A stretch of 60,359 bases of DNA, taken from Oscillatoriales cyanobacterium RM2_1_1. GTDB taxonomy: Bacteria > Cyanobacteriota > Cyanobacteriia > Cyanobacteriales > Microcoleaceae. The DNA lies in the NCBI GenBank assembly GCA_012033335.1, contig JAAURB010000020.1, positions 1 to 60,359 of the forward strand, read 5' to 3'. Position 1 is the first letter of the stretch, and each line of letters begins with the position of its first letter. Made by a program: the position numbers and the translations under genes. This document shows, piece by piece, positions 32,919 through 40,984 of the stretch. The notes beneath the pieces are model-generated. The model saw only the letters and a program-made list of their open reading frames with translations, was not told the origin of the DNA and did not search any database.

Positions 32919-33815
32919 TTAATCTTTGCAGAAGTTTTTAATCAAGGTAGTCTGAATAAATTCTTCAAGGGCGGGAGACGGATTTTTGACTAAAAAAGGC
33001 TCTGCGATCGCATCTGACCAGAGTTGCTGATCAATAAAGTAGACAAATCGGGCATAGGCGGCGGCCTCTGCGGTGGCATTTTTTTGTTGGAGCTGGTTAT
33101 CTAGCTGGGCCAACTCCTGGGTAATTTTCTGGCGCTGATTTTCATCCGCTAGAATCTGAACGGTGATCTGTTGGCTGGGAATCGGCAGGACAGTGGTTTC
33201 GTACATGAGCACCTGATATTTCTGGCCGGATTTGAGGGTGACTTCTGGGATGAGGACTTTGATTCGAGGGTCTGTGATCTCTTGGCTCCACAGCAGATCA
33301 GAATTCCCCTGGGCATAAATCTCAACCCTGGACAGGGGCCCCTTCCAGACCAGCACCGGGCGACTGCTCCAAACCTGAACCTGGGTTTCAATATCAAGGG
33401 GGGCGATGGCGCAGAACCGATCATCTCCTCGGGATCCGCCGCTCCGGCGTTTTCCCTTTGGGGGTTGATTGTTCCAGAACTGGGTTTCCCAGGAGATCTC
33501 CCCGGTGGATGGCCCTTGAGTGGACTCAGTCCCCTGGGTCAGTTGAACCGGAGTCGCCCCTCCCTGGAGTGCCGTTATCGCTTCCCATCCGCTGATGATG
33601 ATAATCACAATACCTGACAACCCCGCTAGTTTGACCCTGAGGCGCTTAACAGTTGTCAGTTTAGTATTCATCGGTTTGATCTTGATGGGTTCAACAAGTT
33701 GACTCTCAGGACTGTCCATCAAATTAGATGAAAATTTTGGAGTGCAGGGCTTTGATCTACCAAAAGACAGTTGAGATGGTGACTTGACTCGATTGACTCT
33801 ATGATCCTTAGCCAT
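32919..33815 (-). CDS. Single-pass membrane protein with extracytoplasmic domain, CHASE2 partner
   Basis: From ATG 33815 the protein has 298 residues. A cytoplasmic Ser/Lys-rich stretch of about 60 residues is followed by one transmembrane helix (LAGLSGIVIIIISGWEAI). The outer part starts with RGDDRFCAIAPLD and a beta-rich domain with WSSRPVLVWKGP and LKSGQKYQVLMYE, similar in layout to DUF928-type proteins, then a coiled, helical C-terminus. The start codon overlaps the stop of the CHAT-CHASE2 gene by 8 nt (ATGGCTAA), so translation is probably coupled. It may form a complex with, or present ligand to, the CHASE2 domain; this is inference. Confidence 0.72.
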   Translation of the reverse strand: MAKDHRVNRVKSPSQLSFGRSKPCTPKFSSNLMDSPESQLVEPIKIKPMNTKLTTVKRLRVKLAGLSGIVIIIISGWEAITALQGGATPVQLTQGTESTQGPSTGEISWETQFWNNQPPKGKRRSGGSRGDDRFCAIAPLDIETQVQVWSSRPVLVWKGPLSRVEIYAQGNSDLLWSQEITDPRIKVLIPEVTLKSGQKYQVLMYETTVLPIPSQQITVQILADENQRQKITQELAQLDNQLQQKNATAEAAAYARFVYFIDQQLWSDAIAEPFLVKNPSPALEEFIQTTLIKNFCKD

Positions 33816-36360
33816 AAAACTTTTTCTCCATTGATGCAGACAAAACATAGATCCACAAAATGACCATGGGAAGGCTGAATGGGATGAGTAGTGCCCCGGT
33901 AGTGTAAAACTGTAGGCTGAGCAGTCCGTATAATCCAGTGGCTCCGATCAGTAAGAACATCCATCTAATCTGTTGCCGGGGAGCCTGACGAATCGCGATC
34001 GCGGCTCCCTGACCCACCAAGGCAAAGACTAATACCATCCACAGATCAGGAATGGGTATAACAAAGCGTTGGTTGAGAAAGTGATCGGTCATGTAGGCAT
34101 GAACCTCGGCCCCCGGCATTTTCTCAGGAATTGCCGCATTGGCTTCCGGGGAGTTTGCCTGGGTTCGCCAGTAATCCAGGGCCCAGGGAACTGGAAAGTT
34201 GTCTTCCCCATCCTGATTGATCCCCGCTTCACCATAGCCCCAAGGGGCAATCAAGGCAATAAAAGGTTCTGAGGGCAGGGCCAGGGTTTCGGGGGGATTT
34301 TCCAACAGTTTCCAGGCGGGGAGCCATTGATAAATCTGTTGGGGCGGAATGGAATAATCCACAATCGGATGCAACCACCACTGGTTCAATCGATAGGCCA
34401 GTCCCGTCACTGGATTCAAGTTAGAGCGGTGAGAAAATAGGGTTTGATAGTCTTGGCCGGTGTTCTCGGTCAGACTGACCTTGACCTGGGCCAGCCATTG
34501 AGTTGAGGCATTGAGTTGGGGTTGGGGTAATTTTTTCAGGGGCTCCCGGTGCATTTGATAGCTCAGAGCCAATAGATAGGAAAATGGCAACCGCCGAGGG
34601 CAGGTCTTTTCTAAGGACTGTTGCAGGGGTGGGGGCAGTAAAACCATGTAGGCGGGCAGATCCCCTAGAACGCTCATGTCTCCATTCAAGCTCCAGTTCG
34701 GGCTGGCCAGTTCGGACACCGTATCGACAAAGCAGCCATTGCCTTCATGGAGCCGACTGACAAAGACAAACCAGACCTGATGTTGCTCAATCGCGTTTTG
34801 GATGGCAGTCGCCAGATAGGCATCATTGTCAGCTTGATAACGATCCAGTAGATAATCAATCCCAATAATCGGGGCATTGGCTGCTGCCAGACGGTCAATA
34901 ATTTGGGCCAGGAATTGTCGGTCAAAGGGCTTGGGATTGGAGATCCGATTGCGCTTAATAAACTCTTCATCCACCCCCACCATCACCACCGGGGGGGAGG
35001 TGACCGCCGGAACCTGGTGAGTCAACTGACGATAAACCGCTTGAGCAAACACCCGCCGATCCAGCAAAAAGCTTTGCAGGCCACCCTGAAAGCTCGCCAG
35101 CATCACCGCCGCTAGGGCAACGGCTTCGAGCTTGCGGGGCTTCCATTGTTTGAGGCGATCGCTCCAACGGGTATGTCTGAGCCGGAAAACCGGAGCATTG
35201 GGATGGCGAAACAGGGACGGAATCAGGTAAGCGCTGGGATAGGTCAATTGCTTTTCCAGCTTGAGGAACTGACAGGCGGACAGTAGGGCATCATGGGCAT
35301 CCTGATAACTGGCTAAGCCCCGAAGAAAATGGCGCAAAAATTCCTGGGCCACTTGATTGTGAACCGGTTCTCGCATCACCGCTACCTGGCACAATCCCAG
35401 GTCAATCAGGGTATTGGCCAGATTCAGTCCTTTGCAGGAATTGAAAATGGCAAATTGTAAGCCCCGCTCCTTGGCCAGGGTCAGGGGTTGAATCAGCTCA
35501 TTTAGATAGAGGGAAATATTCGGGCCAATAGCCAGTTCTCCCCCCACCAGATCGGCTTCGTTACTATGGCCGGCAAAAAACAACACATCCCAGCCTTGGC
35601 GGTCGGCGATCTTCAAGGCAATGTCGGTTCGGAGTTCCTTGGGTTGTTTTCCCGGTTGCCAGCCGACAAACTGGATCTCCGCCATTGAAGATAGGGATCG
35701 CACCGCATCTTTGTCCGCTTGAAAATCCAGTCCCGTTTCATCCCCTAGAATGGCCAGAACCCGAATGCGCCGACTTCGGTCCTGGGCACAGCTTGCGGGC
35801 GGTTCTCCACGAATATTCAGGGGCTTGCGAACGATCCGAATTTTTTCTGTGGTGGTAAATTCAGTGCCAATTTCCCAGGCTTCCCAGGGCAAACGGGCCA
35901 GATCCAGGGGAGTAGCTGTCAAAAATACGTTCACTGGGGTGGCGATCGCCCCTGGTTGTTCAGTCAGAGGGGCGGATTGGGACACCGCCCGGGCAATGGT
36001 GGCCCGAATTTCATACAATTCCTCATGGCGCAGCCAGCGATGAAATTGATACAGCAATTTGGCCTCTGCCTGTACCAGCCTGGCGTGCCAGTCAATGATC
36101 GGTGCCACCTTACCAGACCTCTCGACGCGACCCCGCAGGGCTTGCTGATAAAATCCCAGGTACATCTGCTGCCAGTCCTGGTAGAGGTGGCTGATCAGAT
36201 CGGGATAGGGAATTTGAACCCCTAGCCGTTGTCCCTGGCCCCAGGATAGATCAAATAGACAGACCCGCTCAACCTGTTGAGCCGTGAGATGAAAGATCGG
36301 CCCTGGCTTGTTGGGGCCAATGGTGGTTTCTGCTGGCTGAGCCAATTCACCCTTGTCCAT
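33808..36360 (-). CDS. CHAT caspase-like protease fused to CHASE2 sensor domain
   Basis: The 850-residue protein is a predicted membrane sensor with a cytoplasmic protease. Residues 140-395 form a CHAT (caspase-fold) domain with the catalytic dyad His265 (LFFAGHSNE) and Cys309 (FAIFNSCKGLN). A transmembrane helix (about 411-434) leads to an extracytoplasmic CHASE2 domain (about 445-770; PPVVMVGVDEEFI, APIIGIDYLLD). Three C-terminal helices (PDLWMVLVFALVGQGAAIAI onward) close the protein. CHAT proteins elsewhere act as regulated proteases; CHASE2 usually senses external signals. It lies in the middle of a three-gene operon: TPR gene upstream by 36 bp, membrane protein gene overlapping downstream. 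The target is unknown. Confidence 0.88.
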   Translation of the reverse strand: MDKGELAQPAETTIGPNKPGPIFHLTAQQVERVCLFDLSWGQGQRLGVQIPYPDLISHLYQDWQQMYLGFYQQALRGRVERSGKVAPIIDWHARLVQAEAKLLYQFHRWLRHEELYEIRATIARAVSQSAPLTEQPGAIATPVNVFLTATPLDLARLPWEAWEIGTEFTTTEKIRIVRKPLNIRGEPPASCAQDRSRRIRVLAILGDETGLDFQADKDAVRSLSSMAEIQFVGWQPGKQPKELRTDIALKIADRQGWDVLFFAGHSNEADLVGGELAIGPNISLYLNELIQPLTLAKERGLQFAIFNSCKGLNLANTLIDLGLCQVAVMREPVHNQVAQEFLRHFLRGLASYQDAHDALLSACQFLKLEKQLTYPSAYLIPSLFRHPNAPVFRLRHTRWSDRLKQWKPRKLEAVALAAVMLASFQGGLQSFLLDRRVFAQAVYRQLTHQVPAVTSPPVVMVGVDEEFIKRNRISNPKPFDRQFLAQIIDRLAAANAPIIGIDYLLDRYQADNDAYLATAIQNAIEQHQVWFVFVSRLHEGNGCFVDTVSELASPNWSLNGDMSVLGDLPAYMVLLPPPLQQSLEKTCPRRLPFSYLLALSYQMHREPLKKLPQPQLNASTQWLAQVKVSLTENTGQDYQTLFSHRSNLNPVTGLAYRLNQWWLHPIVDYSIPPQQIYQWLPAWKLLENPPETLALPSEPFIALIAPWGYGEAGINQDGEDNFPVPWALDYWRTQANSPEANAAIPEKMPGAEVHAYMTDHFLNQRFVIPIPDLWMVLVFALVGQGAAIAIRQAPRQQIRWMFLLIGATGLYGLLSLQFYTTGALLIPFSLPMVILWIYVLSASMEKKFYG

Positions 36361-36396
36361 TGCAGCAATGTCTTTTAGCGCTATTCTAATTTACCT

Positions 36397-37476
36397 TTAA
36401 CCAACCTCTGAGCCCAAAATTTCTATCAATTCCTGGGAACGACGATAGAGCCGAACCCCTTCATTGGAGAGATTAAATTGACGATAAACGGTGAGGATAT
36501 GGGGCAACTTCTCAGGTTGGTTGATCCAGTTCTCCAGGGTTTTGAATTGCTCCAGGGCTTTCAGGTGATACCACAGGGCTTGGGATTTATTGCCCCGCCG
36601 ATAACAAATGATCCCCAGATAGTCTAACACTTCAGCATGGGGTTCTAGCTGACCCGTGGTGCGATAGATTCTTTCAGCTTTTTGGTAGGCCTCAAAGGCC
36701 GGGTAATGTTTGCCCTGGAATAAATAGACGGTGCCCATCTGCTTCAGGGTGTCTGCTGATTGCAGGGCGAGCTTTTGGGTTGAAACTTGATTGGGGCTGG
36801 TTTCTGGGGATTGCCCATGCCTGTGAAGTTGCTGTTGAATGGCTAGAGCCTGGGACAAGTAGGCCAGGGCTTGGGGATAACGCCGGGTTTGAGCTTGGGT
36901 AACTCCTAAGTTGTACAGGATTAATGCTTTTTGATCGGGGGATAAGCGGGGGCAAGGTTCGGGCATTTGTTCTAAGGTTTTGAGGATCATCAGGGCCTTC
37001 TGGCAACTTCTGAGGGCTTGATCGAATAGGCCGATGGCGTTGTAGACTTCGCCGAGATGATTCAACACGGAACAGATGCCTTCGAGGTCGGAATGGTGTT
37101 GGAAAATCTCCAGGGCCTTGACATAGGCTCTGAGGGCTGGAGAATATTGCCGGGAAATCCAATAAACCTGACCAATTTCTTGATGAATTCCCCCTTGCTT
37201 GAGACTATTATCTGCAGGGCCAATGACGCTCAAGGCCCGCTCAAAGCATTTGATTGACCAGGCAAAATGCTGGAGATGACGATGAATTTTGCCGATCTCG
37301 ATGAGCCCATCGACCTGGAGGGCTGTGATGTCATCTGAATGTTCACGGGTTTGGGCCAGGGTTAGAAGTTTCTGGAATACTTTCAGGGCGGGTAAAAATT
37401 GCCCTTGATGTAACTGGGCTTGACCGGTTTGATAGAGGGCTGCAAGGTCGGATTGGACGGATGTTGTGGGTTCCAT
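36397..37476 (-). CDS. TPR-repeat protein
   Basis: The 359-residue protein is built of tetratricopeptide repeats, seen in units such as ALKVFQKLLTLAQ, IKCFERALSVIGPADN, ALRAYVKALEIFQHHSD, ALRSCQKALMILKTLEQ, ALAYLSQALAIQQQLH and AFEAYQKAERIYRTTGQ. There is no signal peptide, so it is probably cytoplasmic. It precedes the CHAT-CHASE2 gene by 36 bp in the same direction and is the likely adaptor or regulator of the protease; TPR and CHAT domains occur together in other proteins. Confidence 0.9.
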   Translation of the reverse strand: MEPTTSVQSDLAALYQTGQAQLHQGQFLPALKVFQKLLTLAQTREHSDDITALQVDGLIEIGKIHRHLQHFAWSIKCFERALSVIGPADNSLKQGGIHQEIGQVYWISRQYSPALRAYVKALEIFQHHSDLEGICSVLNHLGEVYNAIGLFDQALRSCQKALMILKTLEQMPEPCPRLSPDQKALILYNLGVTQAQTRRYPQALAYLSQALAIQQQLHRHGQSPETSPNQVSTQKLALQSADTLKQMGTVYLFQGKHYPAFEAYQKAERIYRTTGQLEPHAEVLDYLGIICYRRGNKSQALWYHLKALEQFKTLENWINQPEKLPHILTVYRQFNLSNEGVRLYRRSQELIEILGSEVG

Positions 37477-38900: not shown

Positions 38901-40130
38901 ATGGCTTTAGAAAATCTTATTCAGCGGGTTCGAGCCTGGCTTCCGGCTGCTCAATCTCAACTTCAAGCTAACGTTGCAGAGCTAGAAGCACAGCTCTCCG
39001 AATCAGATTTTACATCTCTTTCTCCTGCTACATTTGCCGATCTAAAAACCCGCTTGGAAACATTGAGAAGTCCCATATCCTATCGACAAACCCTGCAGAC
39101 AGAGCTTAAAGAAGCTTTAGATCAATGGCTAAAACCTGGAACCAAAAGTAATAGCCTGGTTGTACAATGTCACCCAGTAGAGCCTATCGAAAGAATTTTA
39201 CGGGAGGCAATTGTAACCTGGATTCCAGAATATCCAGTCTCAATTGAAGTACTTCAGGAATCCAATCAGCGCCTTGAATGTTCTAGTATTCAGCCTCGGC
39301 TTCAGGAACAACTTGGATCTTTGCAAACCAGTTCCTTCTCCCAGAAAGAAAAGGATTTAATCATTGTTATCCCAAACTTGAGTCAGCTATTTTTGCGTTG
39401 TTTAGATGGATTTGATGCCATAGAATATCTCAAGGATCAAGCCTTTCAAAATCCATCGATCTTCTGGCTAATTGGATGTAATGAATGGTTGTGGCGGTAT
39501 CTAAATCGAGTCTGCGATCTCTCTGCATATTTTGGAGACCCGATTTCACTACCTTTTTTAGGTGGCTTTGAACTGAAGGAATGGCTTGACCCTGTATGCG
39601 AATCAATTAACTTTGAATTCACCCAACAGAATCAACAGAAAGCCCAGAAAAAATTCCAGAATAATCATAGCTCAGATACAAATCAGCCGCGTTGGGCTTC
39701 CGAGCTAGAACAAAAATACTTTGATAGTTTAGCCAATGTGGCATCAGGAATTGGTCAATCTGCTGCCCGTTTGTGGTTATATTCTTTGCATATTTTACAA
39801 TCCGATGAGAATGGTGATGATGATGTTGATGAATCTAGCCAACCTACAAAATTAGTTACATTAAAGGCCAAATTGCCCGACTTACCAGATTTAACTCAAG
39901 ATCAAAGGTTTTTGCTCTATTCTCTGGGTTTACATGAGCGGATGGGCTTATCTGAACTGTCTATAAGCTTAGGAGATTCGATCAGTCAGGTGAGAAATCA
40001 GATTCAAGTTTTGCTAAAAGCTGATGTTGTTGAAAGAAATCATAATTTATTACAAGTTAATCCGGCTCATTACTCTCAGCTTCAACAAGACTTAGCCAAT
40101 AATTATTTTCTGGTAGGAGATTCAAAGTGA
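38901..40130 (+). CDS. AAA/STAND-like protein without Walker A, with winged-helix end
   Basis: The 409-residue protein has a helical N-terminus (to about 85), then a domain with the look of an AAA/STAND ATPase but no GxxxxGK. The place where a P-loop would sit reads LVVQCHPVEPIERIL. A Walker B-like strand (LIIVIPNLSQLFLRCLDGFD) and a sensor-like strand (IFWLIGCNEWLWRYLNRV) follow. Residues 240-310 are Gln/Asn-rich and acidic (NGDDDVDESS). The end resembles a winged helix (LLYSLGLHERMGLSELSISLGD). It is AT-rich against neighbours. The stop overlaps the start of the MscS gene by 4 nt (GTGA), so the two are coupled. It may regulate the channel; this is inference. Confidence 0.78.
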   Translation: MALENLIQRVRAWLPAAQSQLQANVAELEAQLSESDFTSLSPATFADLKTRLETLRSPISYRQTLQTELKEALDQWLKPGTKSNSLVVQCHPVEPIERILREAIVTWIPEYPVSIEVLQESNQRLECSSIQPRLQEQLGSLQTSSFSQKEKDLIIVIPNLSQLFLRCLDGFDAIEYLKDQAFQNPSIFWLIGCNEWLWRYLNRVCDLSAYFGDPISLPFLGGFELKEWLDPVCESINFEFTQQNQQKAQKKFQNNHSSDTNQPRWASELEQKYFDSLANVASGIGQSAARLWLYSLHILQSDENGDDDVDESSQPTKLVTLKAKLPDLPDLTQDQRFLLYSLGLHERMGLSELSISLGDSISQVRNQIQVLLKADVVERNHNLLQVNPAHYSQLQQDLANNYFLVGDSK

Positions 40131-40984
40131 ATTTTCAAACAATTTTCTGGCTAGCTCAGGCCAAAAATGAGACCCTGGACAAAGCTTCAGAGCTAGTTCG
40201 AGATATTACTACTTTCCGGGTTGCTCAAGCTTTAATTATTATCTTTATTACCTACTGGGTAATCTTCTCCATTGAAAAATTGTTAATCTGGCTCTCTGAA
40301 AAAGCTGCATTAAGATTTCGTCTAACGATCAAACAGTCTCTACCCTTTTGGCGAGCTTTTTGTTTGACTCTGGCTGGAATTTTTTTGGGGAATCTTCTCC
40401 TAAATCTTTCTGAAAGCAATGTTTTAGCCGTGACAGGAACGGTGGCTGTTGCCCTGGGTTTTGCATTCAAAGATTATGCAAGTTCTGTAATTGCGGGGAT
40501 TATCGGATTATTTGAACGGCCCTATCAAGTGGGCGATCGCGTTAGAGTTGGGAATTATTATGGGGAAATTGTCAGCTATGGTTTGAGAGGAATCAAACTC
40601 AGAACTCCTACTAATGATGTTGTGATGATTCCCCACAATAAACTCTGGACAGAAGCCATTGTCAACGCCAATGATGGCAACGTAGAAATCCAGGTTGTAA
40701 CAGATTTTTACCTGGCCCATAGAGTAGATTTAGAAAAAGTAATGCAGATTTTATATCGTGTAGCACAGACCAGTAAATACACACAAATCAAACTGCCCAT
40801 TCAAGTTATTCTGGATGAACAGCCCTGGGGAACTCACTTCAGATTAAAATGCTATCCCATTGATGCTAGGGATGAATTTATCTATAAAACCGATTTGATT
40901 AAACGAACCAAACAAGCTCTCCAACAGATGAACGTTAAATACCCAAGTTTTCCTGCTTCAGAGTTTGAGCTCTCGTTTACCTGA
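40127..40984 (+). CDS. MscS-family mechanosensitive ion channel
   Basis: The 285-residue protein has three transmembrane helices (ALIIIFITYWVIFSIEKLL, FWRAFCLTLAGIFLGNLLL and the pore helix VTGTVAVALGFAFKDYASS), followed by the MscS beta domain: IIGLFERPYQVGDRVRVG, GLRGIKLRTPTNDVVMIPHN and a C-terminal alpha/beta part. It begins at GTG 40127 inside the end of the preceding gene. MscS channels open under membrane tension and release solutes. Pairing with an AAA-like cytoplasmic protein suggests control by something besides tension. Confidence 0.92.
   Translation: MNFQTIFWLAQAKNETLDKASELVRDITTFRVAQALIIIFITYWVIFSIEKLLIWLSEKAALRFRLTIKQSLPFWRAFCLTLAGIFLGNLLLNLSESNVLAVTGTVAVALGFAFKDYASSVIAGIIGLFERPYQVGDRVRVGNYYGEIVSYGLRGIKLRTPTNDVVMIPHNKLWTEAIVNANDGNVEIQVVTDFYLAHRVDLEKVMQILYRVAQTSKYTQIKLPIQVILDEQPWGTHFRLKCYPIDARDEFIYKTDLIKRTKQALQQMNVKYPSFPASEFELSFT

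Follow-up and report, generated by a model that had tools for sequence, protein, structure and literature searches.

Kaur et al. (2021) have described proteins of the 'EACC2 plus caspase' type whose encoded neighbours are ECF sigma factors and DUF1822 proteins (PMC8195603, section 9); these neighbours are reported there for most TRADD-N-independent loci and so are not strictly defining. In a second system, Craspase (Csx29-Csx30-CASP-sigma), the TPR-CHAT protease Csx29 is described as acting on Csx30, an inhibitor of CASP-sigma (PMC10028731). Caspase-fold proteins of cyanobacteria include a CHASE2-bearing metacaspase of Trichodesmium (PMC2853523) and HetF, a membrane CHAT protein (PMC8406250), and one Nostoc gene cluster with DUF928-type and CHASE2 genes has been noted (PMC5587647). 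Our literature search found no paper joining the terms 'CHAT domain', CHASE2 and cyanobacteria.

The stretch of DNA analysed here, referred to as the window, comprises 60,359 nucleotides of contig JAAURB010000020.1 of Oscillatoriales cyanobacterium RM2_1_1. On its minus strand lies a gene for an 850-residue, EACC2-like CHAT-CHASE2 transmembrane protease (33808..36360), preceded by a gene for a 359-residue TPR protein (36397..37476) and followed by one for a predicted extracytoplasmic, DUF928-like partner of 298 residues (32919..33815). All three open reading frames are present where the initial annotation had placed them, as are the 36 bp gap between the TPR and CHAT-CHASE2 genes (36361-36396) and the 8 nt overlap (33808-33815) in which the downstream start overlaps the CHAT-CHASE2 stop. 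Hydropathy predicts four membrane segments in the CHAT-CHASE2 protein, none in the TPR protein and one in the downstream protein, in agreement with its earlier description as single-pass.

The closest resemblance is to the EACC2-caspase systems, which share the constant N-terminal domain followed by a caspase and the variable C-terminus with CHASE2 among its types. Of the ECF sigma and DUF1822 neighbours named for these systems, a sigma-like gene and DUF1822 occur in this genome but not next to CHAT-CHASE2 in the window, and a TPR gene lies upstream. A DUF928-like partner is absent from section 9 of PMC8195603, whereas the data of its Figure 3H may hold it. Like Craspase, as that system is presented in PMC10028731, the locus is predicted to combine a separase-type pseudo-caspase with an active caspase and has a sigma-type co-occurring partner, but the trigger here would be a membrane CHASE2 sensor rather than the RNA-guided Cas7-11, and the TPR found in the Csx29 chain has no counterpart in the CHAT-CHASE2 chain. 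The Trichodesmium protein also joins a cyanobacterial caspase fold to CHASE2 and may belong to the same family, although it is described as a p20 metacaspase and as a single CHASE2 case, in an account that mentions no partner genes (PMC2853523). HetF is likewise a cyanobacterial membrane CHAT protein, but is reported to consist of CHAT, one membrane segment and TPR without CHASE2, and to have a role in cell division (PMC8406250); we rejected orthology with HetF on architecture, as the window protein has CHASE2 and four predicted transmembrane segments. DdvA of Myxococcus (PDB 8rot/8rw5) is also membrane-bound, has a region of similar fold and is tied to an ECF sigma factor (PMC4374960), and the Nostoc cluster resembles the window in having a DUF928-type gene beside a CHASE2 receptor (PMC5587647). 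Other CHASE2 receptors have other outputs, such as guanylate cyclase, where this one has a CHAT protease. The architecture and usual neighbours (PMC8195603) and the CHASE2-bearing Trichodesmium metacaspase (PMC2853523) are thus already published; what we add is a DUF928-like partner, evidence that scattered genes are co-retained, and the reading of the protease as a double caspase like separase and Csx29.

The CHAT-CHASE2 protein

Pfam finds only two domains in the 850-residue chain, CHASE2 (6.5e-19, residues 415-782) and CHAT (5.2e-7, residues 245-363), and no TPR domain. The CHASE2 domain (34015..35118, minus strand) is predicted from Pfam, hydropathy and the structural model to be extracytoplasmic, and is flanked by predicted membrane helices, one upstream and three downstream. 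The active caspase (CHAT) domain is placed by Pfam, alignment and fold at residues about 196-398 (35167..35775, minus strand), and before it lies an N-terminal domain of approximate boundary (residues about 22-195; 35776..36297, minus strand) that aligns with the first half, the pseudo-caspase, of the protease region in separase and Csx29. His265 (codon 35566-35568) and Cys309 (codon 35434-35436) were read directly. An intact CHAT dyad, fused in one chain to CHASE2, had been claimed for this protein, and both points are confirmed; the accompanying view of an outside sensor joined to an inside protease is supported.

A single pattern-based scan with the CHAT-CHASE2 protein, covering 84,980 genomes, found 63 related loci whose titles are cyanobacterial. 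Seven loci that are broken, partial or over-long (L040, which is split into two ORFs, L085, L095, L098, L099, L100 and L102) were left out of the alignment, and in the 57 homologues of 720-907 residues that it contains, the window protein included, H265 and C309 are invariant, together with F262, G264 and S266 around the histidine and F306, N307 and S308 before the cysteine. The dyad is kept also in five more diverged paralogues from the same genome, and the site is thus under selection. Loss of the dyad in most homologues, which the initial annotation had named as a refutation, does not apply.

The AlphaFold2 model is confident (pLDDT 90.3). Model residues 17-398 match separase (7nj1; Z 24.4, 2.9 Å, 296 aligned), residues 17-390 match Csx29 (8eey; Z 21.3, 3.9 Å, 290 aligned) and residues 18-385 match the anti-sigma factor DdvA (8rw5; Z 16.2, 4.3 Å, 263 aligned), these matches all concerning residues 17-398 in a search that hardly probed the CHASE2 part; a sequence search of the PDB with the 850-residue chain found no hit at E≤0.1. 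The cytoplasmic half is predicted to be a pseudo-caspase followed by an active caspase, resembling separase and Csx29. Because the separase and Csx29 matches span both caspase-like halves of the model, the EACC2 domain is most likely the pseudo-caspase half that has been described for Csx29 (PMC10028731). The module of N-terminal domain and caspase is common to three paralogues in the same genome (profile positions 28/37 to 363/365), and paralogues there carry PBP-like domains or CHASE2 C-terminally. With an N-terminal alpha+beta domain followed by a caspase (model residues 17-398), and a variable C-terminus for which CHASE2 is among the named types, the protein fits the 'EACC2 + caspase, variable C-terminus' architecture as set out in PMC8195603; the EACC2 name as we use it rests on architecture and neighbours, not on an EACC2 profile.

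The DUF928-like partner

The downstream ORF covers 32919-33848 on the minus strand, and an in-frame ATG at 33815 gives the 298-residue protein. A homologue lies no more than 400 nt after CHAT-CHASE2 at 42 of the 63 related loci, and also in the window; in 25 of these 43 adjacent pairs there is an in-frame start giving an 8 nt overlap, and in 7 more a start giving a 4 nt overlap. The recurrence of such starts makes the one at 33815 likely, and adjacency together with recurrent overlap is strong evidence that both proteins are produced jointly. The suggestion that the downstream extracytoplasmic protein is a true partner is upheld by these loci and by its co-retention in genomes where the genes are scattered (see below). 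We note that, ahead of its membrane segment, the window protein is longer by about 45 residues than most homologues (33672-33815), and that at one locus (L085:2277-5603) the CHAT-CHASE2 and DUF928-like proteins read as one chain of 1108 residues that retains the second hydrophobic segment; coverage of this contig is 1.8 and the fusion may be a frame error.

Pfam finds nothing in the window's downstream protein at E≤0.1, and DUF928 (PF06051) is matched by 27 of 37 family members at that threshold, with a best value of 3.2e-8. Comparison of the family with the DUF928 alignment by hhalign gives a probability of 96.7%, against 0.1-0.3% for three unrelated controls, and by this profile evidence the gene is probably a distant DUF928 relative. 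A simple hydropathy rule places an N-terminal hydrophobic stretch in all 37 members, and the predicted model has an Ig/fn3-like beta domain (residues about 131-224) and four C-terminal helices. Foldseek gave no match to this model at E≤0.001; a second structure comparison found fn3 domains, with Z up to 9.2 over 80 residues, a likeness that says little since fn3 is a common fold.

The association appears to extend beyond this family. At 23 of 35 loci in nine genomes, a CHASE2 gene is found no more than 1.5 kb from a genuine DUF928 gene (21 of 33 after two split genes are merged), a count that covers 35 of 67 matches and uses a CHASE2 profile built from the window's own genome. The proximity expected by chance is estimated at one or two per cent, from 11 CHASE2 matches per 5.2 Mb genome, and given this difference DUF928-type proteins look like general partners of CHASE2 receptors. 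Among the literature matches listed for DUF928, DUF1822 and CHASE2 we found no statement of such a general partnership, and only one paper that mentions DUF928. In the window's own genome (G000, 5.2 Mb) there are 11 CHASE2 and 28 CHAT matches, some of them pieces of one gene.

Sigma-like, DUF1822 and TPR genes

At 37 of 57 loci, genes of a sigma-like/DUF1822 cluster are among the four genes upstream of CHAT-CHASE2, an arrangement that we call linked, and 4 more loci end too near a contig edge to judge. The usual order is a sigma-like protein of about 470 residues, then DUF1822, then CHAT-CHASE2; Pfam identifies DUF1822 at 1.7e-49 in one upstream protein from a related locus. In the window neither gene is adjacent to CHAT-CHASE2. 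Both lie next to each other on another contig of this genome, C129, where they score 555 and 476 bits against the family profiles, with a Pfam DUF1822 match of 9e-54, and none of the 28 CHAT matches is on that contig. The window therefore holds two members of the candidate module and C129 the other two, and the initial annotation missed the usual partners, which are kept on another contig.

In a quick tree, with SH-aLRT support only and some long branches flagged, the window protein falls within a clade of 13 rows (SH-aLRT 95), none of them linked (10 are not linked and 3 are at contig edges), and 37 of the 44 rows outside this clade are linked. The linkage was probably lost in the window's lineage, and it broke more than once, as the tree requires the label to change at least five or six times. 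In one genus (g9; L188, L189 and L198, which are G014, G008 and G020) the module is reordered as DUF1822, CHAT-CHASE2 and DUF928-like, with the sigma-like gene downstream, and in G020 one opposite-strand ORF separates the DUF928-like gene from the sigma-like one.

The sigma assignment is a weak one. TIGR02937 is found in 5 of 29 family members, with a best value of 3.2e-5. When seven members were scanned one at a time, three matched, each far short of the cut-off. By hhalign the family aligns with three sequences (RpoE, FecI and one similar ORF) at 36.8% over 39 columns in the sigma4 region, with controls at 0.0-0.2%. There is no Pfam sigma hit in the 29 members and no sigma chain among PDB sequences at E≤1, and PHROGs gave nothing useful. 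For DUF1822, sequence searches for a known fold gave nothing at E≤1, and no anti-sigma likeness was found. Upstream of the scattered genes (sigma-like, CHAT-CHASE2 and DUF928-like), a search for a promoter motif in two parts gave at best a pattern in 2 of 7 genomes, compared with 1 of 7 in the reversed control and none in the reverse complement, and a shared motif is therefore unsupported.

Among 59 genomes CHAT-CHASE2 (E≤1e-100) is present in 20 and the sigma-like protein (E≤1e-60) in 20, with both in 19 and neither in 38; the DUF928-like family (E≤1e-20, a threshold set after the list was seen) is in 18, all among the 20 with CHAT-CHASE2. The exceptions are G034 without the sigma-like protein, G058 without CHAT-CHASE2, and G043 and G048 without the downstream family. 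Relaxing the DUF928 threshold to 1e-8 adds four genomes (G004, G036, G042 and G058) and changes the Fisher p from 2.9e-13 to 1.8e-9, in tests that ignore ancestry. A class sample of 145 genomes, which overlaps with the 59 as these do with the 63 loci, gives CHAT-CHASE2 in 30, the sigma-like protein in 33 and both in 29 (exceptions G111, G078, G131, G161 and G169); the CHAT-CHASE2 search in this sample used an alignment that includes two paralogues from the window's genome, and several of the 30 match only to about position 580. Here the DUF928-like family is in 24 genomes, 22 of them with CHAT-CHASE2 and two without (G073 and G188), and CHAT-CHASE2 is without the downstream family in G043, G064, G067, G080, G111, G162, G178 and G197. 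Presence is patchy within genera, with only G030 of seven genomes of genus g3 having all three. Absences are not proofs, because each genome search scores only the best first-look candidates (34 or 6, for example).

The genes are also co-retained when not linked. Nine genomes from five genera have a sigma-like gene that is not adjacent to CHAT-CHASE2, and in eight the DUF928-like gene is likewise apart from it. The 5-14 kb around CHAT-CHASE2 in G005, G007, G012, G018, G019, G023, G027, G034 and G048, which include eight of the nine genomes with an unlinked sigma-like gene, contain no sigma-like, DUF1822 or DUF928-like gene, the separation resting partly on short contigs, as the upstream sequence is about 0.5 kb in G012 and about 1.6 kb in G007. 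The sigma-like gene stays beside DUF1822 in seven of eight unlinked genomes (the exception being G048; in G007 the DUF1822 gene runs off its contig) and in the window's own genome, and a further sigma-like copy in G003 keeps the DUF1822 pair too. Membership of the four components in one module is well supported.

The TPR gene behaves differently. Its 359-residue product matches Pfam TPR_1 at 5.6e-30, and an orthologue (E≤1e-50, among the best 34 candidates scored per genome) is found in only 2 of 59 genomes, its own and G003, where it also precedes CHAT-CHASE2. We therefore rejected it as a core partner, and the expectation that all three genes would stay together across cyanobacteria holds for CHAT-CHASE2 and the downstream gene but fails for the TPR gene, which does not belong to the set as had been supposed. 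TPR-bearing genes do recur near the module, lying within 150 bp upstream of CHAT-CHASE2 at 8 of 63 loci by their own hit or by cluster: those at L053, L056, L062, L073 and L088 are CHAT+TPR fusions, those at L040 and L044 are TPR alone, and that at L057 was counted through a protein cluster in common with L056. A short member of that cluster is 465 bp upstream at L043. On this distribution the window's TPR gene is a lineage-specific neighbour.

A putative signalling module and the alternatives

We propose that the CHAT-CHASE2, DUF928-like, sigma-like and DUF1822 proteins form a four-component cyanobacterial signalling module in which proteolysis would switch transcription, a reading to which we give about an even chance. 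CHASE2 and the DUF928-like protein, perhaps in direct contact, would sense a signal on the envelope side, and the membrane helix at residues 410-447 would relay the change to His265/Cys309 in the CHAT active site, which would then cleave DUF1822, as an anti-sigma-like protein, or the receptor itself. Cleavage would free or activate the sigma-like factor and so alter transcription, provided that this protein works as a sigma factor; the TPR protein would be an accessory in the window's lineage. DUF1822 is the likeliest target, its anti-sigma role being a guess: where the module has come apart it keeps its place next to the sigma-like gene, as expected of an anti-sigma. The fuller form of this idea is a membrane-gated counterpart of Craspase, with a CHASE2/DUF928 receptor, separase-type cleavage of DUF1822, release of a divergent sigma factor and a circuit that works in trans after scattering; we think it less likely than not. 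If the proposal is right, a transmembrane receptor in cyanobacteria controls transcription with a separase-like protease as its output, and CHASE2 receptors and DUF928 and DUF1822 proteins gain a testable role. The co-retention of unlinked genes provides a concrete list of partners.

Cleavage may not be needed at all. The receptor could hold the sigma-like protein or DUF1822 and release it on a signal, with the caspase fold mainly as a docking or allosteric unit, much as might be suggested by the match of model residues 18-385 to a stretch of the transmembrane anti-sigma DdvA, reported to pair with the ECF factor DdvS as its cognate anti-sigma (PMC4374960). The invariance of His265 and Cys309 in the 57 homologues and their retention in the five diverged paralogues speak instead for selection on the site, and we regard such a binding switch as unlikely. 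If the site does cut, it might cut its own chain and free an acting cytoplasmic fragment, the sigma-like factor being merely a downstream reader; Kaur et al. proposed activation as an autopeptidase for EACC2 proteins (PMC8195603), and we nonetheless think an autoproteolytic receptor of this kind improbable.

The remaining alternative is the one suggested by the initial annotation, a cell-death or abortive-infection protease with a TPR adaptor, in which an outside signal would unleash broad or lethal cleavage. Related EACC systems have been proposed to act in apoptosis and immunity networks (PMC8195603), TPR-CHAT genes are nearby at several loci, and relatives of CHAT-CHASE2 are plasmid-borne in 35 records (E≤1e-20; the names listed are cyanobacterial), 17 of which match over at least 80% of the protein. 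However, PADLOC gives no match for the CHAT-CHASE2 protein, the TPR gene is found in only 2 of the 59 genomes, and the partners that recur with CHAT-CHASE2 are a sigma-like protein and DUF1822; for the other two window proteins PADLOC gives only a generic TPR model and, for the downstream protein, GajA at 0.057. A lethal protease thus seems distinctly unlikely and the earlier suggestion of one is unsupported; the genomic context points to transcriptional signalling, and the module's probable task is to turn genes on, not just to kill the cell.

On plasmid p1 of Leptolyngbya boryana all four module genes are consecutive (MCP04_RS29825-RS29840), which makes the module testable. Between Tolypothrix PCC 7712 and PCC 7601, a 19-base insertion and a SNP have been reported in DUF1822 genes (PMC9679502), and both changes are within about 6 kb of CHAT-CHASE2 matches, on plasmids CP063787 and CP063788. 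In the window's own genome three further EACC2-like CHAT genes are near a DUF1822 gene (L138, G000:C118:44000-62000), and two of the three have a C-terminal PBP-like solute-binding domain in place of CHASE2. Elsewhere in the window, at 38901-40984 on the plus strand, genes for a hypothetical protein and an MscS-type mechanosensitive channel overlap by 4 nt.
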